A stretch of DNA of 20,481 nucleotides from a virus. A program made the position numbers and the translations under genes. Numbering within the stretch: position 1 is the stretch's first letter; each line of letters opens with the position of its first letter. The stretch lies in the IMG/VR virus record IMGVR_UViG_3300022538_000221, positions 1 to 20,481 of that record. One strand, written 5' to 3'. This document shows, piece after piece, positions 4,070-17,432 of this stretch. The notes under the pieces were generated by a model. The model did not search any database. It had not been told where the DNA came from and worked only from the letters and a program-made list of their open reading frames with translations.

Positions 4070-4161
4070 ACTGGTGGTCATTAACCGGCGCCATAGCTGG
4101 TGTCATAATAATTACATGGATTGGCGCGGCCCTTATGCTGATTCGGTGTGGAAATCTTTAA
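4066..4161 (+). CDS. 31-aa single-span membrane micro-protein
   Basis: ATG 4066 overlaps the previous stop in an ATGA. The 31-residue product is one hydrophobic helix (about residues 6-25, LTGAIAGVIIITWIGAALML) between a tryptophan pair (NWW) and a short tail (RCGNL). It is too short for database-style family calls. Position after terL and the coupled start support expression; a role at the membrane is the only inference possible. Confidence 0.45.
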   Translation: MNWWSLTGAIAGVIIITWIGAALMLIRCGNL

Positions 4162-4192
4162 GTGTTACTAAAACCGTAACGGAGGTTATGCC

Positions 4193-4606
4193 ATGACAAC
4201 TGACATAAATTTTAATATAACCGGTATTGAGAATTTAATCGAAGACCTTAAGGCGACCAGGTGTCACTGTAGCAACGTGGCTTGCAACAATAACTGTGCT
4301 TGGGAGGGCAGGAACATATTGCTTCCCCCGAAGTGCTTGCTTCCCAGTGTTTATTTGGGCAAAGAGGGCGAATGCAAGGACAATTTGGTTAAGAAACCGC
4401 ATGGCGAAACGTCCAAGGCCTTGATGACAAAATACCAAAAACACTGGGCGGCCCAAGAGGCCAATGTTGAGGCGAGCGCTAAGGCCCGGGATTTATTAGA
4501 TCGTGTGAGCATCTTTGCAACGAATTATTTAAAGGCAGAGGGCCGTTGCCAAATACCAGAGAGTCTTCTTGATGAAATTAACGATCATCTGGGCAAAGAA
4601 GAATAA
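4193..4606 (+). CDS. Cys-rich hypothetical protein sharing a module with the scaffold
   Basis: A 137-residue protein starting at ATG 4193, seven bases after GGAGG; an ATG at 4188 is too close and stops at once. The N-terminal part carries many cysteines (RCHCSNVACNNNC at about 23-35, then KC and EC), possibly a metal site. Residues 75-91 (KALMTKYQKHWAAQEAN) are identical to a segment of the putative scaffold protein encoded at 16563-17432. The C-terminal helix is amphipathic (SAKARDLLDRVSIFATNYLK). No family is recognised. The shared segment could be a common binding site for a capsid or portal partner, or the residue of a DNA transfer between the two genes. Confidence 0.68.
   Translation: MTTDINFNITGIENLIEDLKATRCHCSNVACNNNCAWEGRNILLPPKCLLPSVYLGKEGECKDNLVKKPHGETSKALMTKYQKHWAAQEANVEASAKARDLLDRVSIFATNYLKAEGRCQIPESLLDEINDHLGKEE
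4414..4465 (+). repeat. 52-bp dispersed coding repeat, copy 1
   Basis: Matches 16901-16952 at 50 of 52 bases in direct orientation. The two differences (A for G) are both third-codon changes, and both copies are read in the same frame, so the encoded 17 residues are identical. Confidence 0.95.
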
Positions 4607-4652
4607 TTCATTTTGTGTTAATGGGCCGTAAACACATTAAGGGGAAATGGAA

Positions 4653-4817
4653 ATGATACCGCACACCTTTAGAAAAAAGAATTCACATGAGGCTCGCCAG
4701 TTAAACAGGGAGGCCAACAGGATGAAAGCACAGATTAACCGGGTTATGAGGCGTCGAGCACGAAAGGGGTACGGGTGTGATCCCAAGGCCCTGCTGCTGA
4801 GGATGATAGATGCTTGA
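4653..4817 (+). CDS. 54-aa basic hypothetical protein
   Basis: ATG 4653 lies 8 bases after AAGGGG; an in-frame ATG at 4647 is too close to that site. The 54-residue product starts MIPHTFRKKNSHEARQLNRE and is one long, very basic helix-like protein (AQINRVMRRRARKGYG). It ends at TGA 4815-4817, overlapping the next start by 8 bases. No family is recognised; the charge pattern is compatible with nucleic-acid binding, which is inference. Confidence 0.55.
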   Translation: MIPHTFRKKNSHEARQLNREANRMKAQINRVMRRRARKGYGCDPKALLLRMIDA

Positions 4818-4980
4818 TTTGAAAAAAGAGCCAACGGTTGAAGAATCTATTTTTGCTGGTCTGACCCATTACAAACAATTCCAGGTCTATAGGCTGGCAG
4901 TTAAGTATTGGTGGCAGGGCGATGACTGGAAGAAGGCTTGGGAGTATGCTCTATCACTTATTGCGGGGTGGAAAAGATGA
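4810..4980 (+). CDS. 56-aa hypothetical protein
   Basis: Starts at ATG 4810 inside the end of the previous gene and stops at TGA 4978-4980, which overlaps the following ATG in an ATGA. The 56-residue product is rich in aromatic residues (VYRLAVKYWWQGDDWKKAWEYA) and appears soluble and helical. The unbroken chain of overlapping starts from 4653 to 6142 argues for one translationally coupled cluster. Function unknown. Confidence 0.55.
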   Translation: MLDLKKEPTVEESIFAGLTHYKQFQVYRLAVKYWWQGDDWKKAWEYALSLIAGWKR

Positions 4981-5135
4981 ATCCAAATGAAATAACAGAA
5001 TTTCAAGTATTTTTTACAAGTTTTTCGGCCTTGATAGCTGGTATTTTTTTGGGATATGCAATGCCTCAATTTGATTTTCTCGAACAGGACGTCATTGAGC
5101 TGGTGAGGAAAATCTGGAGGAGGTGGAAAAGATGA
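4977..5135 (+). CDS. 52-aa single-span membrane protein
   Basis: ATG 4977 is coupled to the previous stop (ATGA) and has a GGGGTGG site upstream; a longer in-frame GTG start at 4938 lies deep in the previous gene and is unlikely. Residues about 10-29 form a hydrophobic segment (QVFFTSFSALIAGIFLGYAM), followed by an acidic linker and a basic, tryptophan-rich tail (RKIWRRWKR). By the positive-inside rule the tail would face the cytoplasm. Family and function are unknown. Confidence 0.6.
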   Translation: MNPNEITEFQVFFTSFSALIAGIFLGYAMPQFDFLEQDVIELVRKIWRRWKR

Positions 5136-5530
5136 AAAAAGCGTACCTAGAGATCACCACATGGAAGGGCACTTTTGTTTGGTATGCGGATCATTATTAC
5201 GGTTCATTGAGGTTTGGTGATGAAAGAATCGATGTAAATTGTAAGCCTACCGGGGGAGATGAACCGTGCGGATTTACTGATGAGGAAAAACTGGTAAAAT
5301 CGGCTACTGAATTATTCAAACAGGATAGCCATGGCTATGAAATCTTGATCAAGGGTAGCAGTCATGTTTGCTTTCCACAAAAAATACTGGTTGGTCCTTC
5401 CGAGATCAAGGCCGAGGCAAATGGATTGTATAATCAATACGTTAATCATGAAGGTGGGTGGAACCATGAAATGAAAAACATATTTGAGAAATGGGATTCG
5501 ATCGTTGGTCCTGTTTGGGAGAATGAATAA
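5132..5530 (+). CDS. 132-aa hypothetical protein
   Basis: ATG 5132 lies behind an excellent GGAGGAGG site and is coupled to the previous stop; the ATG at 5123 sits inside that site. The 132-residue protein has an alternating N-terminal half suggesting beta strands (YLEITTWKGTFVWYADHYYG) and a helical, aromatic C-terminus (FEKWDSIVGPVW). Three cysteines are scattered without a pattern. It ends one base into the next start codon. No family is recognised. Confidence 0.65.
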   Translation: MKKAYLEITTWKGTFVWYADHYYGSLRFGDERIDVNCKPTGGDEPCGFTDEEKLVKSATELFKQDSHGYEILIKGSSHVCFPQKILVGPSEIKAEANGLYNQYVNHEGGWNHEMKNIFEKWDSIVGPVWENE

Positions 5531-5778
5531 TGATTGAAAGCAAATACCTGGAATTCGATAAGGTTTGGGACACCGGCAAGACCGAGATCTGGAACGTTTT
5601 AAAAAAAACCATCGGTTCCGGGCTGGATTCCAGCCATCAGTTTATTTTGGGTCAAATCAAGTGGTATCCGCAATGGCGTCAGTATTGCTTCTTCCCTTCA
5701 CCCCACACCGTATTCAACATCGACTGTATGCGGGATATCATGCGGGTGATTAGAGACTTAATGGATGAGCGGAAATGA
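5530..5778 (+). CDS. Conserved phage protein (WRQYCFFP type)
   Basis: An 82-residue protein whose ATG 5530 shares a base with the previous TAA. The core reads LGQIKWYPQWRQYCFFPSP followed by TVFNIDCMRDI and a C-terminal helix (MRVIRDLMDERK). A short family with the signature LGxIKWYxxWRxYCFFP, then a cysteine and helix, is widespread in phages of many hosts as I remember it, with no known function. It is followed, with ATGA overlap, by the CCDCGLVH gene, another small family of scattered phage distribution. The family assignment is from memory of the motif, not from a search. Confidence 0.7.
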   Translation: MIESKYLEFDKVWDTGKTEIWNVLKKTIGSGLDSSHQFILGQIKWYPQWRQYCFFPSPHTVFNIDCMRDIMRVIRDLMDERK

Positions 5779-5978
5779 AATATAAAAACATGCGAAGTGG
5801 GGAATGGTTTGAGTAGGCGCAGGGTAACAGCATTGCATGCTGTGATTGCGGCCTAGTGCACTGGTTTGAATACAGGATACGGCGCCGAAACCATAAACAG
5901 GTATTAGAGCTAGGGGCGATCGTGGATCGGCGAGCAACCAGCCAGGTACGCAGGCATATGCGAAAGAGGAAGAAATGA
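5775..5978 (+). CDS. Conserved small phage protein (CCDCGLVH) split by in-frame TAG
   Basis: ATG 5775 opens a frame that meets TAG at 5814-5816 after 13 codons (ending SGEWFE) and then stays open to TGA 5976-5978. The part after TAG reads SIACCDCGLVHWFEYRIRRR and ends with RRATSQVRRHMRKRKK. This matches, from memory, a phage family of about 60-70 residues with a GEW start, a central CCDCGLVH and a basic RAT..R tail, so both sides of the TAG belong to one gene. The next ATG overlaps the distal TGA, as in the neighbours, and the preceding start is coupled normally. Either TAG is read through, or it is a nonsense mutation or sequencing error. No ATG with a ribosome site restarts before the motif. 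Confidence 0.72.
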
Positions 5979-6142
5979 GTGAATGCAAAAGATGTGGCAC
6001 ACCCTATTCATATGGGCCTTCATTTCCGGATGGGGATTTTTGCCCGACCTGTTTGATTCTTAGAAACGGGAATAATCCACTGAAGATATTGTTGGGAAAA
6101 AAATCTATCAATTTGTCAAACGTGAGGGATCATGAAAATTAA
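5975..6142 (+). CDS. 55-aa zinc-ribbon-like protein
   Basis: ATG 5975 follows an AAGAGGAAG site and overlaps the previous TGA. The 55-residue product carries two CxxC knuckles, CKRC at residues 4-7 and CPTC at about 23-26, separated by a short loop with GPSFPDGDF, the layout of a small zinc ribbon. A basic, hydrophobic tail follows. Such miniature zinc ribbons in phages may bind nucleic acid or host enzymes, but no partner can be named. The 3' end overlaps the next gene by 11 bases. Confidence 0.62.
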   Translation: MSECKRCGTPYSYGPSFPDGDFCPTCLILRNGNNPLKILLGKKSINLSNVRDHEN

Positions 6143-6338
6143 ATATTTTATACCACTGGTTCTGGAGGTTAAGGTCAGCCATCCCCGGAGTGCTCTCCTG
6201 GTTAATAACGCTGTTGATCATGAGTTCGAAGACGAAATGGACGAAATCAAGAGAAAAATTGACGTGAGAATAGAGGAATACCTGATTTATTGGGCACAAA
6301 CGAACGGGATAGAGGTAACTGCTCGATTTACTAAATAA
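6132..6338 (+). CDS. 68-aa hypothetical protein
   Basis: ATG 6132 lies 4-5 bases behind a GAGGG site in the previous gene. The 68-residue product starts with a short strand-like segment (KIKYFIPLVLEVKV) and continues with a strongly charged helix (FEDEMDEIKRKIDVRIEEYL). It shows no cysteine pattern, signal or membrane segment. Family unknown. Confidence 0.55.
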   Translation: MKIKYFIPLVLEVKVSHPRSALLVNNAVDHEFEDEMDEIKRKIDVRIEEYLIYWAQTNGIEVTARFTK

Positions 6339-6357
6339 AACATGAAAGGAAAACAAA

Positions 6358-6627
6358 ATGAGAAAATTAACTATTATTCAGCCACACAAACCAGATCCTG
6401 AACCCGTTGATCCGATCGAGATTGATGCCAGTCGAATGATTGGGGTGAGGAAAGAAGGCAATAGAATTCGATCTGATGCCTGTATCACGCTCTGTGCTGT
6501 TCGGGAGGTCGGTGAATTTGCCCATGGTGCAATTTGGTTGAACAGTGGGTACGACTGGAAAATCGGAATGGATTCGGAAGGTGTTCTTTGTGCGGTACCC
6601 CTGGAGAGATTGTCAATTGTCAAGTAA
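6358..6627 (+). CDS. 89-aa hypothetical protein
   Basis: ATG 6358 follows GAAAGGAAAAC, a fair ribosome site. The 89-residue protein has a proline-rich start (QPHKPDPEPVDPIEID) and a body of probable beta strands (ACITLCAVREVGEF, GAIWLNSGYDWKIG). Nothing identifies its function. Its last 18 bases contain the first of four TTGTCA repeats, so the 3' end of the gene overlaps a regulatory region. Confidence 0.6.
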   Translation: MRKLTIIQPHKPDPEPVDPIEIDASRMIGVRKEGNRIRSDACITLCAVREVGEFAHGAIWLNSGYDWKIGMDSEGVLCAVPLERLSIVK

Positions 6628-6644
6628 GTTGTCAATAGTTGTCA
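6610..6644 (+). repeat. Four direct TTGTCA repeats
   Basis: TTGTCA occurs at 6610, 6617, 6629 and 6639 within 35 bases, in one orientation and with 7, 12 and 10 base steps. The last copy joins a small inverted repeat GTCA-CAA-TGAC (6641-6651). The cluster spans the end of one gene and the start of the next spacer, in front of the coiled-coil gene. It may be a set of operator half-sites. Confidence 0.6.
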
Positions 6645-6666
6645 CAATGACTACTATTGTTATCAA
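6639..6666 (+). promoter_or_regulatory. Possible sigma70-type promoter
   Basis: The last TTGTCA (6639-6644) matches the -35 consensus at 5 of 6 positions; 16 bases later TATCAA (6661-6666) matches the -10 at 4 of 6. A further palindrome (AAAGTT-GT-AACTTT) lies just downstream in the leader of the gene at 6737. If the TTGTCA repeats are operators, a bound protein would block this promoter. Moderate to weak match only. Confidence 0.35.
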
Positions 6667-6736
6667 GGTACGCTAAAGTTGTAACTTTGCTAACTCCAGA
6701 ATTATTGACAAATAAATAAAACGAAAGGTGAAAACA

Positions 6737-7954
6737 ATGGAAAATATCTTTGAAATAGTTGAGATTTCTGAGCTCCAGGATCGGATTAAATTACTTACCA
6801 AGCGTCTTCACGACAAGGGAGAGTTTATCACAAAACTTAACGGGGAATGTACCGAGCTTCATCAGCGTATCATAACGCTTGGCCGGACCTTCGGGGCAAA
6901 GATCGATTATTGGCGTGATCGGTGTGACAGGAGCGAGATGCCATACCGGAAGCTTAAGGAACAGATCAAGTCACTCACCGAGTGTCTTCACGATAAAAAT
7001 GATTCTGTGACCAAGCCCCAGGATCGGGTTGAGATGCTTGTTTCAACCTGTGATGCTTTTACCGAGGCTATTAAGAAAGTGGAGGAGTGGCGTGATTACT
7101 GGAAAAAAGGATATTCTGAACTCTACACTGAGCTTCAGGATACGGCCAAGGCCTTGTCGGAGGCCAATGAGAAATTACATAAGTTGGCCAGACGCGATGG
7201 ATACAAGGATCTTGAGGAAGAAGCCGCAGTTGCCCAGGAAAGATATGATCGCCTTGTGGGAGATTTTAATAAATGGCGTGTTCGATGTGATAAATTTAAA
7301 GCGTTATGCCAAGATCTTAAGGCGAAAGTCAAGAGGCTCGAGGAAGAGGCTGTGGTTGCCAAGGGTAGCCATGATCTTTTTGCGGAGGAAAAGAAAGATC
7401 TTGATGGCATAGTAGCCACATTGCGTGAACTGAGAGACTGCGATCAGAAGCAGATGGTTGAACGTGAGGAACGGATTGAAGGACTGCTTGAGGATAGGGA
7501 TTTTTGGAGGAAAGCTCATCATCGTGTTAACCAGGAACTTCAGAACCTTAAGTCACACAAACTTGTAGTCGCGGGGACCGAGGATGTTGAGGCTCTTAAG
7601 AAAGAATTAAAGGCTGTACAGACGGGAGCCCAGGCAAGAATTGAATTTCTTACGAAAGGATATAAAGAGATCAAAGCTGAGCTGGAAACCGAGAAAGGTC
7701 ATTCGGATTTTCTTAAGAAATTAGTTAAAGCCCTGGTTGGTGCCGATGCCGGCATACTTACCCTTTATGATGCCCACGAATTCCATAGGAAATATCTTAG
7801 AGACATGGCTGAATTGGAAGCCAAGCGAAATATCTTGGTAAAAAATATCGACATATCAAAAACCGAGCAGGTGATCAGGGACCTGGTCGAAGAGTGTCGA
7901 GACCTTAGAGCACAACTGGCGGCTGCCGAGACCGATGGCAACCCCGGTATGTAA
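6737..7954 (+). CDS. Long coiled-coil protein with internal repeats
   Basis: ATG 6737 follows GAAAGG by eight bases; an in-frame GTG at 6728 overlaps that site. The 405-residue protein is almost entirely charged helix with heptad-like spacing. Internal repeats are visible: IKLLTKRLHDKGEFITK near residue 17 and IKSLTECLHDKNDSVTK near 80; LEEEAAVAQ and LEEEAVVAK; and a recurring tryptophan unit (YWRDRC, WRDYWKKGYSEL, KWRVRCDKF, DFWRKAHHR). There is no signal peptide, membrane span or enzyme motif. A similar tryptophan unit (RDYWAGIYSDL) occurs in the protein at 10686-11903, suggesting a related partner surface. A structural or scaffold-like role is possible; no family is recognised. Confidence 0.8.
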   Translation: MENIFEIVEISELQDRIKLLTKRLHDKGEFITKLNGECTELHQRIITLGRTFGAKIDYWRDRCDRSEMPYRKLKEQIKSLTECLHDKNDSVTKPQDRVEMLVSTCDAFTEAIKKVEEWRDYWKKGYSELYTELQDTAKALSEANEKLHKLARRDGYKDLEEEAAVAQERYDRLVGDFNKWRVRCDKFKALCQDLKAKVKRLEEEAVVAKGSHDLFAEEKKDLDGIVATLRELRDCDQKQMVEREERIEGLLEDRDFWRKAHHRVNQELQNLKSHKLVVAGTEDVEALKKELKAVQTGAQARIEFLTKGYKEIKAELETEKGHSDFLKKLVKALVGADAGILTLYDAHEFHRKYLRDMAELEAKRNILVKNIDISKTEQVIRDLVEECRDLRAQLAAAETDGNPGM

Positions 7955-7955
7955 A

Positions 7956-8073
7956 TTAGCCAGACAGTAGCGCAATGGATGCGCGTTAGGCTTTTGGGTT
8001 GCCAAGCGACTTGGCTTAATGTGCCGCTGCCAGTTCTTAGCTAATCGCGGATACTGGGCGCCGGCACAACCCA
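7956..8073 (+). ncRNA. Candidate structured RNA in intergenic gap
   Basis: The 143-base gap between two genes folds well by eye. Helices: GCGC 7970-7973 with 7981-7984 (loop AATGGAT, like a tRNA D-arm); TGGGTT 7995-8000 with AACCCA 8068-8073; inside it GCCAAG 8001-8006 with CTTGGC 8010-8015 (loop CGA) and GTGCCG 8021-8026 with CGGCAC 8062-8067, extended by CCAGT 8030-8034 with ACTGG 8053-8057. The last three stems form a closed three-way junction. No standard tRNA can be completed. It may be an independent small RNA or a leader element of the gene at 8098. Confidence 0.42.
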
Positions 8074-8918: not shown

Positions 8919-9173
8919 ATGAATAATACCATAAAAATCGATGAAGCCGATGCGGAAGATGCGATAAAGAAGGGGCGCGAGGAGGCCCCTAAAAGGAAAG
9001 CGGCTGAAAGGTGGCGCGATGATCATTTACCCGGAGGGTTCTATTCCAAAGAGCCATCGACAACGGACAAGTTATTAATTTTGTCAAAGCACTACGGCGA
9101 GATCTGGAGCAACTGGTATCAATTATGGATAGAAATAAGGGCAGGGATATGGACGAGATTAGGGCTGCGTTAA
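8919..9173 (+). CDS. 84-aa hypothetical protein
   Basis: ATG 8919 has a GGTGAG site six bases upstream. The 84-residue protein has a charged helical start (IDEADAEDAIKKGREEAPKR) and a tryptophan-rich second half (IWSNWYQLWIEIRAGIW). It overlaps the next gene by 25 bases (or 49 if the earlier ATG of that gene is used). No family is recognised. Confidence 0.5.
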   Translation: MNNTIKIDEADAEDAIKKGREEAPKRKAAERWRDDHLPGGFYSKEPSTTDKLLILSKHYGEIWSNWYQLWIEIRAGIWTRLGLR

Positions 9174-9772
9174 TACCGCCGATACCGTACAAGCGGATAC
9201 CAGGCTATTGTCTCTTGATGAAGGTTGAGGACGGATTACTCACCTTTACCGCTGAGGCCGGGGACGATAATTGGGTTAAATTAATGTCAATTATGCTTGA
9301 CTTGGAGCGCAGTTTCAGGTATTGTATTCTCTATACCGTTATGGAGTCCCGAGATCGTATAGCAGACTCGTATTTTCGTGATCTTTACAAGCGTGCAAAG
9401 GAGGAAATACCATGGATTAAAATTATGCCGGCGCCCTATGCCAGCGACATTCCACAGGGGATTGCCTTATTTACTGAGACCATGACGCACGGCAAATTTG
9501 TAATGCCCCCCGAATCATCTATCCTTTTCGGGCATATCGGTCAGCTACAAGCCGATGCTCTTCCGGATGACGATTGTTATGCTTTTCATGCCCTAAGGTA
9601 TATCCTCGGTGGTTTGTCAATTCAACCCGTCATTGACGTCAAGCAAGTGGCTGAAGGCAGGATTGCATGGATTAACGCACAAAAGCGTAACAAATTAACG
9701 GGTATGTCAAAAGCGGCCTGGGACGAGCTTGATGTTCTCAAACAAGAACAGAAACGCAAACAGGAGGATTAG
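9149..9772 (+). CDS. 207-aa hypothetical protein
   Basis: ATG 9149 has AAGG eight bases upstream and is preferred to the in-frame ATG 9125, which lacks a site. The 207-residue protein is soluble, with alternating hydrophobic strands (YCLLMKVEDGLLTFTAE) and a DDDCYAFHALRYILGG stretch near residue 150. That stretch loosely recalls the last acidic helix of RNase H-fold terminase nucleases (aspartate, then an A-x-x-Y helix), as in DHFRHAFNY of the TerL here, but the other acidic motifs are not evident. It ends in TAG 9770-9772, three bases before the next start. Function unknown. Confidence 0.65.
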   Translation: MDEIRAALIPPIPYKRIPGYCLLMKVEDGLLTFTAEAGDDNWVKLMSIMLDLERSFRYCILYTVMESRDRIADSYFRDLYKRAKEEIPWIKIMPAPYASDIPQGIALFTETMTHGKFVMPPESSILFGHIGQLQADALPDDDCYAFHALRYILGGLSIQPVIDVKQVAEGRIAWINAQKRNKLTGMSKAAWDELDVLKQEQKRKQED

Positions 9773-9775
9773 CAA

Positions 9776-10720
9776 ATGAAGACAAAATGGAGAGGCAAAA
9801 CGTGCAAAAAAACCTTTTTAATCTTACTCGGCCTGCTCATGTTCGTAGCTGCGTGCTATGCTGAGAACGTTGTAAAGTCCGACGGCGGGAACCCGCTGCT
9901 TCAAAACCTACGTGTTACCCGAACCTGGGCACCAACTGGTAACTGTATCAGTACCCTCGATGCAAAATGGGTTGAACCCGAGATACTTGCTGAGGCCAGG
10001 GCACTTACAACTACTGGTCAATTAACAGTGCTTGTGATTTCTCGGGACATTATGGGCTGGAAGAAGAATGAGGCCCGGGTGTATGGTGCCTCGGATGCCG
10101 AGCACGCAGTCTCAATGTGGGGAAGATCGGAACCAATAAGGGATTTGATCGATCTCGCAATGCCAATCGAGGGATTCATTACCCTTGAATGGTGGGATAC
10201 TTATTCTCAATATCGTATATTATTTGCCAAAGAAACCTCGGACGACATCGACAAGCTTGCGTCATACATTAACGAAATGATTGCAAAAGATGCGATGCCG
10301 AAGGCTACGTCTAAAAAGATTAAGTGGACTGGTGAAAAGATCAGTGAATGGACCCATGTTGGCAAGGCAAATACTTCGAGAGAATGGGCCGATGGCAAGG
10401 GTAATACCATGGCCTATCCAGAGTCAATACTTGGCCCAAATTGGGTTGCATATCTTTCCGCACTTGGTGGCCCACGTCCATTATTTATAGAATATATCAA
10501 ACCTTCAGCCGGCGGTCCCCACCGAGTTGTTCTTGATTCACAACTCTATGGCAACTTGAATCCGTTTATTTATGAGGCCGATACATATAGAGCTGGATCC
10601 AAACTCCCGATTAGGGGGGTGAGCGATCGTTCCGGCTGGTGGCCCAAGGCGATTCCGACCTGCCCCATATGGCCGGATCCAGACAATGAAACAGAATACA
10701 AGGTTAAAACTGGAACATGA
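9776..10720 (+). CDS. Exported protein or lipoprotein of unknown function
   Basis: ATG 9776 follows CAGGAGG closely. The first residues are basic (MKTKWRGKTCKK), followed by a hydrophobic core (FLILLGLLMFVA) and VAAC at 24-27, which fits a lipobox, or alternatively AYA/EN for a plain signal peptidase cut. The mature part (about 285 residues) is rich in tryptophan and aromatic residues with an even mix of strands and helices, and no enzyme motif is recognised. A phage-coded exported protein could alter the infected cell's envelope, for example to block superinfection, or be a virion protein; both are inference. The end overlaps the next gene by 35 bases. Confidence 0.75.
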   Translation: MKTKWRGKTCKKTFLILLGLLMFVAACYAENVVKSDGGNPLLQNLRVTRTWAPTGNCISTLDAKWVEPEILAEARALTTTGQLTVLVISRDIMGWKKNEARVYGASDAEHAVSMWGRSEPIRDLIDLAMPIEGFITLEWWDTYSQYRILFAKETSDDIDKLASYINEMIAKDAMPKATSKKIKWTGEKISEWTHVGKANTSREWADGKGNTMAYPESILGPNWVAYLSALGGPRPLFIEYIKPSAGGPHRVVLDSQLYGNLNPFIYEADTYRAGSKLPIRGVSDRSGWWPKAIPTCPIWPDPDNETEYKVKTGT

Positions 10721-12818: not shown

Positions 12819-12836
12819 GGAAAGAAGGAGGTTATG

Positions 12837-13043
12837 ATGATTGATATTTTTTTAAGTACAAGGGCACCGACAAATTTGGACTTAATCATAATAGTTTTTC
12901 TGGGCGTTCTTTTGGCAGGGCTTTTCAAAGAGGTTGTTGGATGGGGCCTGGATATAATAACGGATTGGTGGAAATTCCGTATAAGAGGATATTGGTGGAA
13001 ATTCTGGAAAAGAGAACACTGGCTCACAAGGAGGCCGCGATGA
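12837..13043 (+). CDS. 68-aa single-span membrane protein
   Basis: ATG 12837 is five bases after GGAGG; the ATG at 12834 is too close. Residues about 14-30 form a membrane helix (LDLIIIVFLGVLLAGLF), followed by an amphipathic, tryptophan- and arginine-rich tail (DWWKFRIRGYWWKFWKREHW). Its TGA overlaps the next ATG. The tail would bind the inner face of the membrane strongly. No family is recognised; no endolysin is near to suggest a spanin or holin role. Confidence 0.6.
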   Translation: MIDIFLSTRAPTNLDLIIIVFLGVLLAGLFKEVVGWGLDIITDWWKFRIRGYWWKFWKREHWLTRRPR

Positions 13044-13324
13044 CATTTGATCCCTTTGCTTCGATCGCTATTATATGCGTTCTTTTAATAATCCTGCTCA
13101 TTTTACAAGCAATAATGATCAGTAAAACCCTGACCTATAAAGACAAGGTCCAGGGTGAACTCCTAAATAAACTTATGGCTAAGGACTTTAAGGACTACAC
13201 CGAGGGCACGCACCGGATCGACATGGGAATTGCGGCCCTGAAGACAGCGGCGAAGGCACGTAAGATTAAGCCTGCGGATAATTCCGAGAAAGAGGTTGAA
13301 CCGGACGAAGTACCTGTTATCTAA
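13040..13324 (+). CDS. 94-aa single-span membrane protein upstream of portal
   Basis: ATG 13040 has AAGGAGG eight bases upstream and overlaps the previous stop; a longer in-frame start at 12941 would lie within the previous gene. Residues 9-26 are strongly hydrophobic (IAIICVLLIILLILQAIM), and the rest is charged helix ending in an acidic tail (KEVEPDEVPVI). The layout, an N-terminal anchor with a helical cytoplasmic or periplasmic body, is seen in small proteins near phage portal genes, but I cannot name the family. Confidence 0.6.
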   Translation: MTFDPFASIAIICVLLIILLILQAIMISKTLTYKDKVQGELLNKLMAKDFKDYTEGTHRIDMGIAALKTAAKARKIKPADNSEKEVEPDEVPVI

Positions 13325-15898: not shown

Positions 15899-16219
15899 AT
15901 GGTTAACATGATCAGAAAACCCAAGAAAACGAAAAGATCCAAGACGATGGAAACGCCCTACGAGGAACGGGAGCGGTATCCGTACGGCCTTCAGATTAGT
16001 TTTGAATCCGAAGAGTTGAAAAAGCTTGGCCTTGACGTTAAGGATTTTGAGGTCACCGAGAAGGTGAAATTTACGGCCAAGGCCGAAATCACAAGTCTTT
16101 CCTCGAATAAAAATGAGCCCAATGAAGAAAGGCAGAGTATGAGCATCCAGATCACGGATATAGAATTTGATCTTTTGGCAGGGCTTTCATTAAAACAACT
16201 GAAGGCAATTAATGCATAG
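15899..16219 (+). CDS. Putative capsid-associated (staple-like) protein
   Basis: ATG 15899 follows GAAAGGAAATTT. The 106-residue protein has a basic tail (MIRKPKKTKRSK), then RYPYGLQISFESEELKKLGLDV, then beta-rich segments (KFTAKAEITSLSSN, MSIQITDIEFDLL). Small proteins of this shape, with a YP-GL-I motif followed by a K-LG segment and an oligonucleotide-binding-like barrel, lie between portal and capsid genes in many phages and have been described as capsid-stapling or stabilising proteins; the match is from memory. It ends in TAG. The basic start could contact packaged DNA or capsid. Cellular role: head assembly, inferred. Confidence 0.65.
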   Translation: MVNMIRKPKKTKRSKTMETPYEERERYPYGLQISFESEELKKLGLDVKDFEVTEKVKFTAKAEITSLSSNKNEPNEERQSMSIQITDIEFDLLAGLSLKQLKAINA

Positions 16220-16562: not shown

Positions 16563-17432
16563 ATGCCAAGCGACGTAGTAGATACGACACAGCAAGTAGT
16601 GGAAGGTGACGGTAGTTCTGATACGCAAACCACTACAACAGATACAAACGTATCCGAATCAGAGCAAACAAAGACCGGCGACGGTACGGCCACCGACGAC
16701 GGCACAAAAACCGATACCGAAAAAGCGGAGGCTAAAGCTAAAGCCGAAGCCGAGGTCACTGAAAAGCAAGGCGCTTTTATGAGCGATCTTTTGCTTGAAT
16801 ATGACCTCGAAAGCCCGGAAAAACTTGGCGAGTTCATTAAGGACTTGAAAACGTTAAAGAGCAAGGTCGGTGAGGAAGACATCGACGACCTTATCGATAA
16901 CAAGGCCTTGATGACAAAATACCAAAAGCACTGGGCGGCCCAGGAGGCCAATAAGAAAAAAGAGGGCGAAACGCCCGAGGAAACCATCAAACGCCTTGAA
17001 GGCGAAATTGAAGTCAAGAACAAGGCGGACCAGGAAACACAGTTACAGAGCGATGACCTTAAAGAGACCAAAAAGGCTATTGAAGTATTTAACGCCACGG
17101 TCAATAAAACGATTAAGGGCATTGCGAATGTCCCGGAAGAGTACCGAAGTTTTCTGGGCCTGTCCCTGGGAGTTGAAAATCCCATCAACGAAGTCGATTT
17201 AAAGGACCGTGGTAAAATTATTGAGCTTACAAAAAGCGGTGCCAAGCAGTTAATGGACTTCGAACAGGTCATTATCAAGCGGTACATGAAGGGGAAGACT
17301 GAGGTTCCGAAGGTTACGGCAACAACCGATACAAACACCGAACCCGGTGTGAAACCTATAAAGAATTTAGGCGATGCAAGGAAGAAACTGATTGAAGTTG
17401 CTACGGCTGCTTTTCAGAAAAAGAAAGAATAA
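16563..17432 (+). CDS. Putative capsid scaffolding protein
   Basis: ATG 16563 follows a GAGAGAGG site. The 289-residue protein has a low-complexity, threonine- and acid-rich start (residues 1-55), then alternating charged helices (KAEAKAKAEAEVTEKQGAF, ETPEETIKRLEGEIEVKNK) and a basic C-terminus (DARKKLIEVATAAFQKKKE). Position directly before the capsid gene, size and helical charged nature match phage scaffolds, which guide capsid-shell assembly and then leave; the basic C-terminal helix is typical of capsid contact. Residues 114-130 (KALMTKYQKHWAAQEAN) are identical in the small protein encoded at 4193. No protease is visible next to it. Confidence 0.78.
   Translation: MPSDVVDTTQQVVEGDGSSDTQTTTTDTNVSESEQTKTGDGTATDDGTKTDTEKAEAKAKAEAEVTEKQGAFMSDLLLEYDLESPEKLGEFIKDLKTLKSKVGEEDIDDLIDNKALMTKYQKHWAAQEANKKKEGETPEETIKRLEGEIEVKNKADQETQLQSDDLKETKKAIEVFNATVNKTIKGIANVPEEYRSFLGLSLGVENPINEVDLKDRGKIIELTKSGAKQLMDFEQVIIKRYMKGKTEVPKVTATTDTNTEPGVKPIKNLGDARKKLIEVATAAFQKKKE
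16901..16952 (+). repeat. 52-bp dispersed coding repeat, copy 2
   Basis: Second copy of the segment at 4414-4465, 50 of 52 bases the same, inside the scaffold gene and in the same reading frame. The two differences are silent. Confidence 0.95.

Follow-up and report, generated by a model that had tools for sequence, protein, structure and literature searches.

Single in-frame stop codons in otherwise intact genes are reported to be widespread in prokaryotes, with the mobilome as the category in which they occur most often (PMC7918605). A second group of related systems is formed by the TAG-recoded phages (code 15; crAss-like, Lak and phAss-1 phages), in which in-frame TAGs are numerous and suppressor tRNAs may be present (PMC9523058, PMC8346664, PMC10607447); in phAss-1, TAG occurs in 41 ORFs (PMC10607447). 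The window analysed here, the whole of a 20,481-base virus record, is a fragment of a tailed phage with genes for a terminase (phrog_675), a P22-like portal and a major head protein. Its best capsid and terminase matches, found in phages of the unrelated hosts Arthrobacter and Vibrio, are ~26% identical and too distant to name a host. As in the genes analysed by Belinky et al. 2021 (PMC7918605), a single stop was found in an otherwise intact, conserved frame, here that of a phage gene; however, those authors required the stop to be present in at least two genomes, whereas in this case it is carried by one contig only. With the TAG-recoded phages the window has in common an in-frame TAG within a phage gene, but there is one such TAG, no tRNA was found and TAG serves as a stop. 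Within the CCDCGLVH family, to which the interrupted gene belongs (e.g. UOF80475.1, MW202691.1), the stop at codon 14 is present in the window's copy alone.

The interrupted frame, located at positions 5775-5978 of the plus strand (as are all the features of this locus given below), comprises 68 codons and yields 67 amino acids if read through. It is translated as MKYKNMRSGEWFE*AQGNSIACCDCGLVHWFEYRIRRRNHKQVLELGAIVDRRATSQVRRHMRKRKK*, where the first asterisk is the TAG at 5814-5816, codon 14 of the frame and the only in-frame TAG splitting a gene in the window. Just 5' of this codon, columns 9-13 of the family alignment contain a conserved GEW-type N-terminal motif (GEWFE, residues 9-13; 5799-5813), and the segment directly after the TAG is AQGNSIACCDCGLVHWFEYRI. 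The CCDCGLVH motif (5838-5861), recognised in the translation and in the family alignment, and the C-terminal RRATSQVRRHMR motif region (5928-5963), which includes the invariant R/T/Q/R/R columns, are both intact, and the frame ends in RRHMRKRKK. The tight ATGA coupling described at both ends of the frame in the initial annotation was confirmed by the ORF coordinates. The ATG at 5775 shares its ATGA with the TGA of the upstream gene (5530-5778), and the TGA at 5976-5978 shares another with the ATG of the downstream gene (5975-6142), which has its own AGAGGAAG leader; PHROGs and Pfam gave no family for either neighbour. The absence of a restart site after the TAG also held, as the first ATG, GTG or TTG 3' of the TAG is the GTG at 5856, which encodes the V of GLVH and thus lies inside the CCDCGLVH motif.

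Searches with the read-through protein confirmed family relatives in at least 255 IMG/VR stretches, 80 of which were kept, and relatives were also present in 22 bacterial or archaeal contigs and 2 phage records. Judged by these relatives, the frame 5775-5978 is a real gene, belonging to a small, widespread and uncharacterised phage family for which PHROGs and Pfam gave no name at a meaningful score (weak matches, E 0.03-0.19). The proposal of the initial annotation that both halves of the frame match one conserved phage family, interrupted by the TAG, was borne out. The nearest N-terminal match, UOF80475.1 (MW202691.1, locus L013), reads SGEWFDYAGAFDLACCECHLVH against SGEWFE*AQGNSIACCDCGLVH in the window. 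Alignment with five relatives, to which the window's copy is 37-43% identical, revealed that the residue order and spacing of the family (GEW ... CCxCxLVH ... R-T-Q-RR) are kept and that all 11 family-invariant residues 3' of the TAG are intact. The window's copy carries the CC-[DEQ]-C-[GH]-LVH motif, a GEW-like N-terminal motif ~10-12 residues 5' of it and the C-terminal R-x-T-x-Q-x-RR pattern, but its frame is interrupted at 5814. The GEW residues are conserved among distinct sequences (G in 65/93, E in 66/93, W in 77/93), and since position 11 is aromatic in nearly all homologues (W, or F in 11/93), the N-terminus belongs to the family. By these sequence features the window's copy is a family member by descent, but not as an intact member. 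Another member of the family (L021:2001-2260) has a frame that departs from the C-terminal part conserved in the family (VFREVMESGRCCLMRN...), as though by a frameshift, and is another damaged or variant copy. Two CCDCGLVH copies were found in each of the contigs IMGVR_UViG_3300036862_000033 (L022 and L034) and IMGVR_UViG_3300046780_000444 (L057 and L068); since some phage contigs carry two, a phage may tolerate losing one of them.

The codon present in relatives at the site of the TAG was surveyed by extending the matches to their stops with a script, which provided 106 loci representing 93 distinct sequences. No stop interrupted the N-terminus and motif in any of these 106 loci, two of which are cut by the contig end. 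One additional locus (L104), which the script omitted since its match runs up to a TAG, was checked by hand and showed an open frame with an ordinary TAG after the complete protein, which brings the survey to ~107 relatives. The column of the TAG is occupied by Pro in 68/93 distinct sequences, by Val in 10/93, by Glu and Ala in 4/93 each and by Tyr in 1/93, Tyr being the residue of the closest N-terminal relative. The homologue alignment recommended by the initial annotation thus returned a sense codon in every surveyed relative, but the residues that it expected to be common at the site, Q or E, were wrong. Degenerate searches detected no IMG/VR contig in which the motif is preceded by GAA- or GAG-TGG-N6-TAG, and no contig encoding the peptide of the window allele with any codon at the site, in scans that may omit the record of the window itself and records very close to it. 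Since neither the survey nor the degenerate searches revealed a second TAG allele, the TAG is derived and so far unique. With 0 of ~107 surveyed relatives interrupted, the case shows that an in-frame stop may be conspicuous in a conserved phage gene and yet be an isolated event. The gene had no match in the nearest capsid relatives (G001-G008), hence no syntenic allele was readable. The neighbour gene 5530-5778 matched one weak locus and the neighbour gene 5123-5530 none, and the region 4100-8000 matched no phage or plasmid DNA. No close (same-species) relative that would show the change to be recent was found in the collections.

The initial annotation had left four options open, namely programmed read-through, host amber suppression, a fresh nonsense mutation and a sequencing error. 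The sense codons of the homologues, the lack of a suppressor tRNA and of a distinctive structure, and the use of TAG as an ordinary stop shift the weight to the last two, so that a one-off nonsense change or consensus error is strongly favoured, whereas read-through and suppression were left without positive evidence. In our judgement, which was not computed, an isolated nonsense substitution, real in the sampled phage and affecting a small accessory gene, is by a little the better side of an even balance. At codon 14, where relatives mostly have Pro or Val, a recent substitution would have created the TAG in an ordinary family copy. The ribosome should then terminate after 13 residues, making the allele null or near-null; the remaining frame would not yet have decayed in the short time since, and the downstream gene coupled to it (5975-6142) could still be translated through its own ribosome-binding sequence. 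This reading supposes that the base is truly in the phage, that the nonsense change is recent and that the interrupted gene is, probably, dispensable. The 11 intact invariant residues 3' of the TAG are as expected if the change is young. They fit equally a gene still expressed by read-through, and may therefore mean either a young change or a product that is still made.

The main competitor is a sequencing or assembly consensus error, in which the phage population would carry a sense codon and the contig a wrong base or a minority variant; we judge it a real possibility, albeit one that we would not expect to prove correct. The virus record was seen once and no second contig backs the base, and a single wrong base is enough. 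A single substitution in these genes has a ~4.6% chance of creating a stop, and for this reason one stop-making consensus error in some 20 kb contig is to be expected among millions. However, the window offers no direct sign of poor quality, since none of its genes besides this one was recognised as disrupted.

Read-through of the TAG by host amber suppression, pyrrolysine insertion or a programmed mechanism, which would provide the full 67-amino-acid protein at a reduced level, is unlikely. The retention of every family-invariant residue 3' of the TAG is what this mechanism would produce, TAG is rare as a stop here (2 of 35 genes) and a small hairpin (ACAGCAT-TGC-ATGCTGT, 5827-5843) lies 10 nt 3' of the TAG. 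However, the fold of this 7-bp hairpin is indistinguishable from chance: its region folds no better than shuffled sequences at three extents (z -0.53, -0.04 and -0.82), and 55 of 200 shuffles folded at least as well in the test with z -0.53. No Rfam match was found in the window and no suppressor tRNA in the window or its relatives, the stop is not conserved in any surveyed relative, the TAG at 9770 is an ordinary stop with an AGGAGG 5' of the next gene, and a 13-amino-acid product ending at the stop makes little sense as a second isoform. That the natural host reads through the TAG efficiently enough to be of use, by an amber suppressor or pyrrolysine tRNA, making the CCDCGLVH protein dependent on host decoding, we consider very improbable. 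If true, the decoding of UAG by the host would gate a phage gene, a situation that would be rare in nature and that has the intact frame as its sole support.

Termination at 5816 followed by a re-start, which would yield the CCDCGLVH part alone from a non-standard start such as the ATT at 5832, is likewise hardly to be expected. This ATT is located 15 nt 3' of the stop with a weak CAGGG 7 nt before it, and the distant member L113 has a shorter N-terminus, but no ATG, GTG or TTG precedes the motif and the GEW part that would be lost is conserved, as indicated by the W or F at position 11. ATT is a very rare start codon.

The use of TAG was also analysed throughout the window, where 22 genes out of 35 end in TAA, 11 in TGA and 2 in TAG. 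Three TAGs had been listed in the initial annotation as ordinary stops, and two of them stood. The TAG at 9770 is followed by an ATG at 9776 preceded by AGGAGG-ATTAGCAA-ATG, with the perfect AGGAGG 8 nt 5' of this ATG, which opens a signal-peptide-like (signal/lipobox-like) start. The gene closed by the TAG at 16217 has homologues in relatives, which cover residues 5-109 of its 125, and a Pfam match that is Gp10-like. The TAG at 218 says little about stop use, as no convincing gene precedes it: a TAA interrupts the frame there 36 codons from the start of the window, and only ~26 amino acids are possible from an ATG. The ORFs 9125-9772 and 9776-10720 share one reading frame and are separated only by TAG-CAA, an arrangement that the initial annotation did not mention. 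Read-through of the TAG at 9770, joining the two ORFs, was considered and rejected on account of the AGGAGG and the signal-peptide-like start, which argue for two genes. TAG is also a normal stop in the head-module relatives G001, G002 and G004 (7/50, 6/22 and 6/18 ORFs, respectively). No tRNA genes were detected in the window, which is part of a genome, or in the contigs of these relatives (64, 21 and 27 kb; ~113 kb), and the search for a suppressor tRNA with a CUA anticodon, proposed in the initial annotation, was accordingly negative. Genome-wide reassignment of TAG (code 15 or a pyrrolysine code), for which the single in-frame TAG is all that speaks, is excluded in practice by codon usage, with one in-frame TAG in ~6,240 codons, none in the terminase, portal or capsid genes, and genes ending in TAG both in the window and in its relatives, in agreement with the initial annotation, which had found such reassignment unsupported.

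Other features were observed in the window. Between 13500 and 18800, the portal and capsid proteins share 45-64% identity with those of G001, G002 and G004, whereas the terminase and the left half of the window have no match in these contigs, which points to a mosaic genome. A 52-nt stretch occurs at 4414-4465 and again at 16901-16952 with 96% identity, both differences being A/G; the copies, which are 12.5 kb from each other, sit in frame in separate genes and both encode KALMTKYQKHWAAQEAN. Judged by its relatives, which show KYQRDWAKQE-like forms at that place, the stretch is native to the gene preceding the capsid gene, probably the scaffold, and in the ORF 4193-4606 it looks like a recently copied patch. 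Finally, two adjoining 27-nt copies, 78% identical, were found at 12953-13006, within the overlapping ORFs 12834-13043 and 12941-13324.
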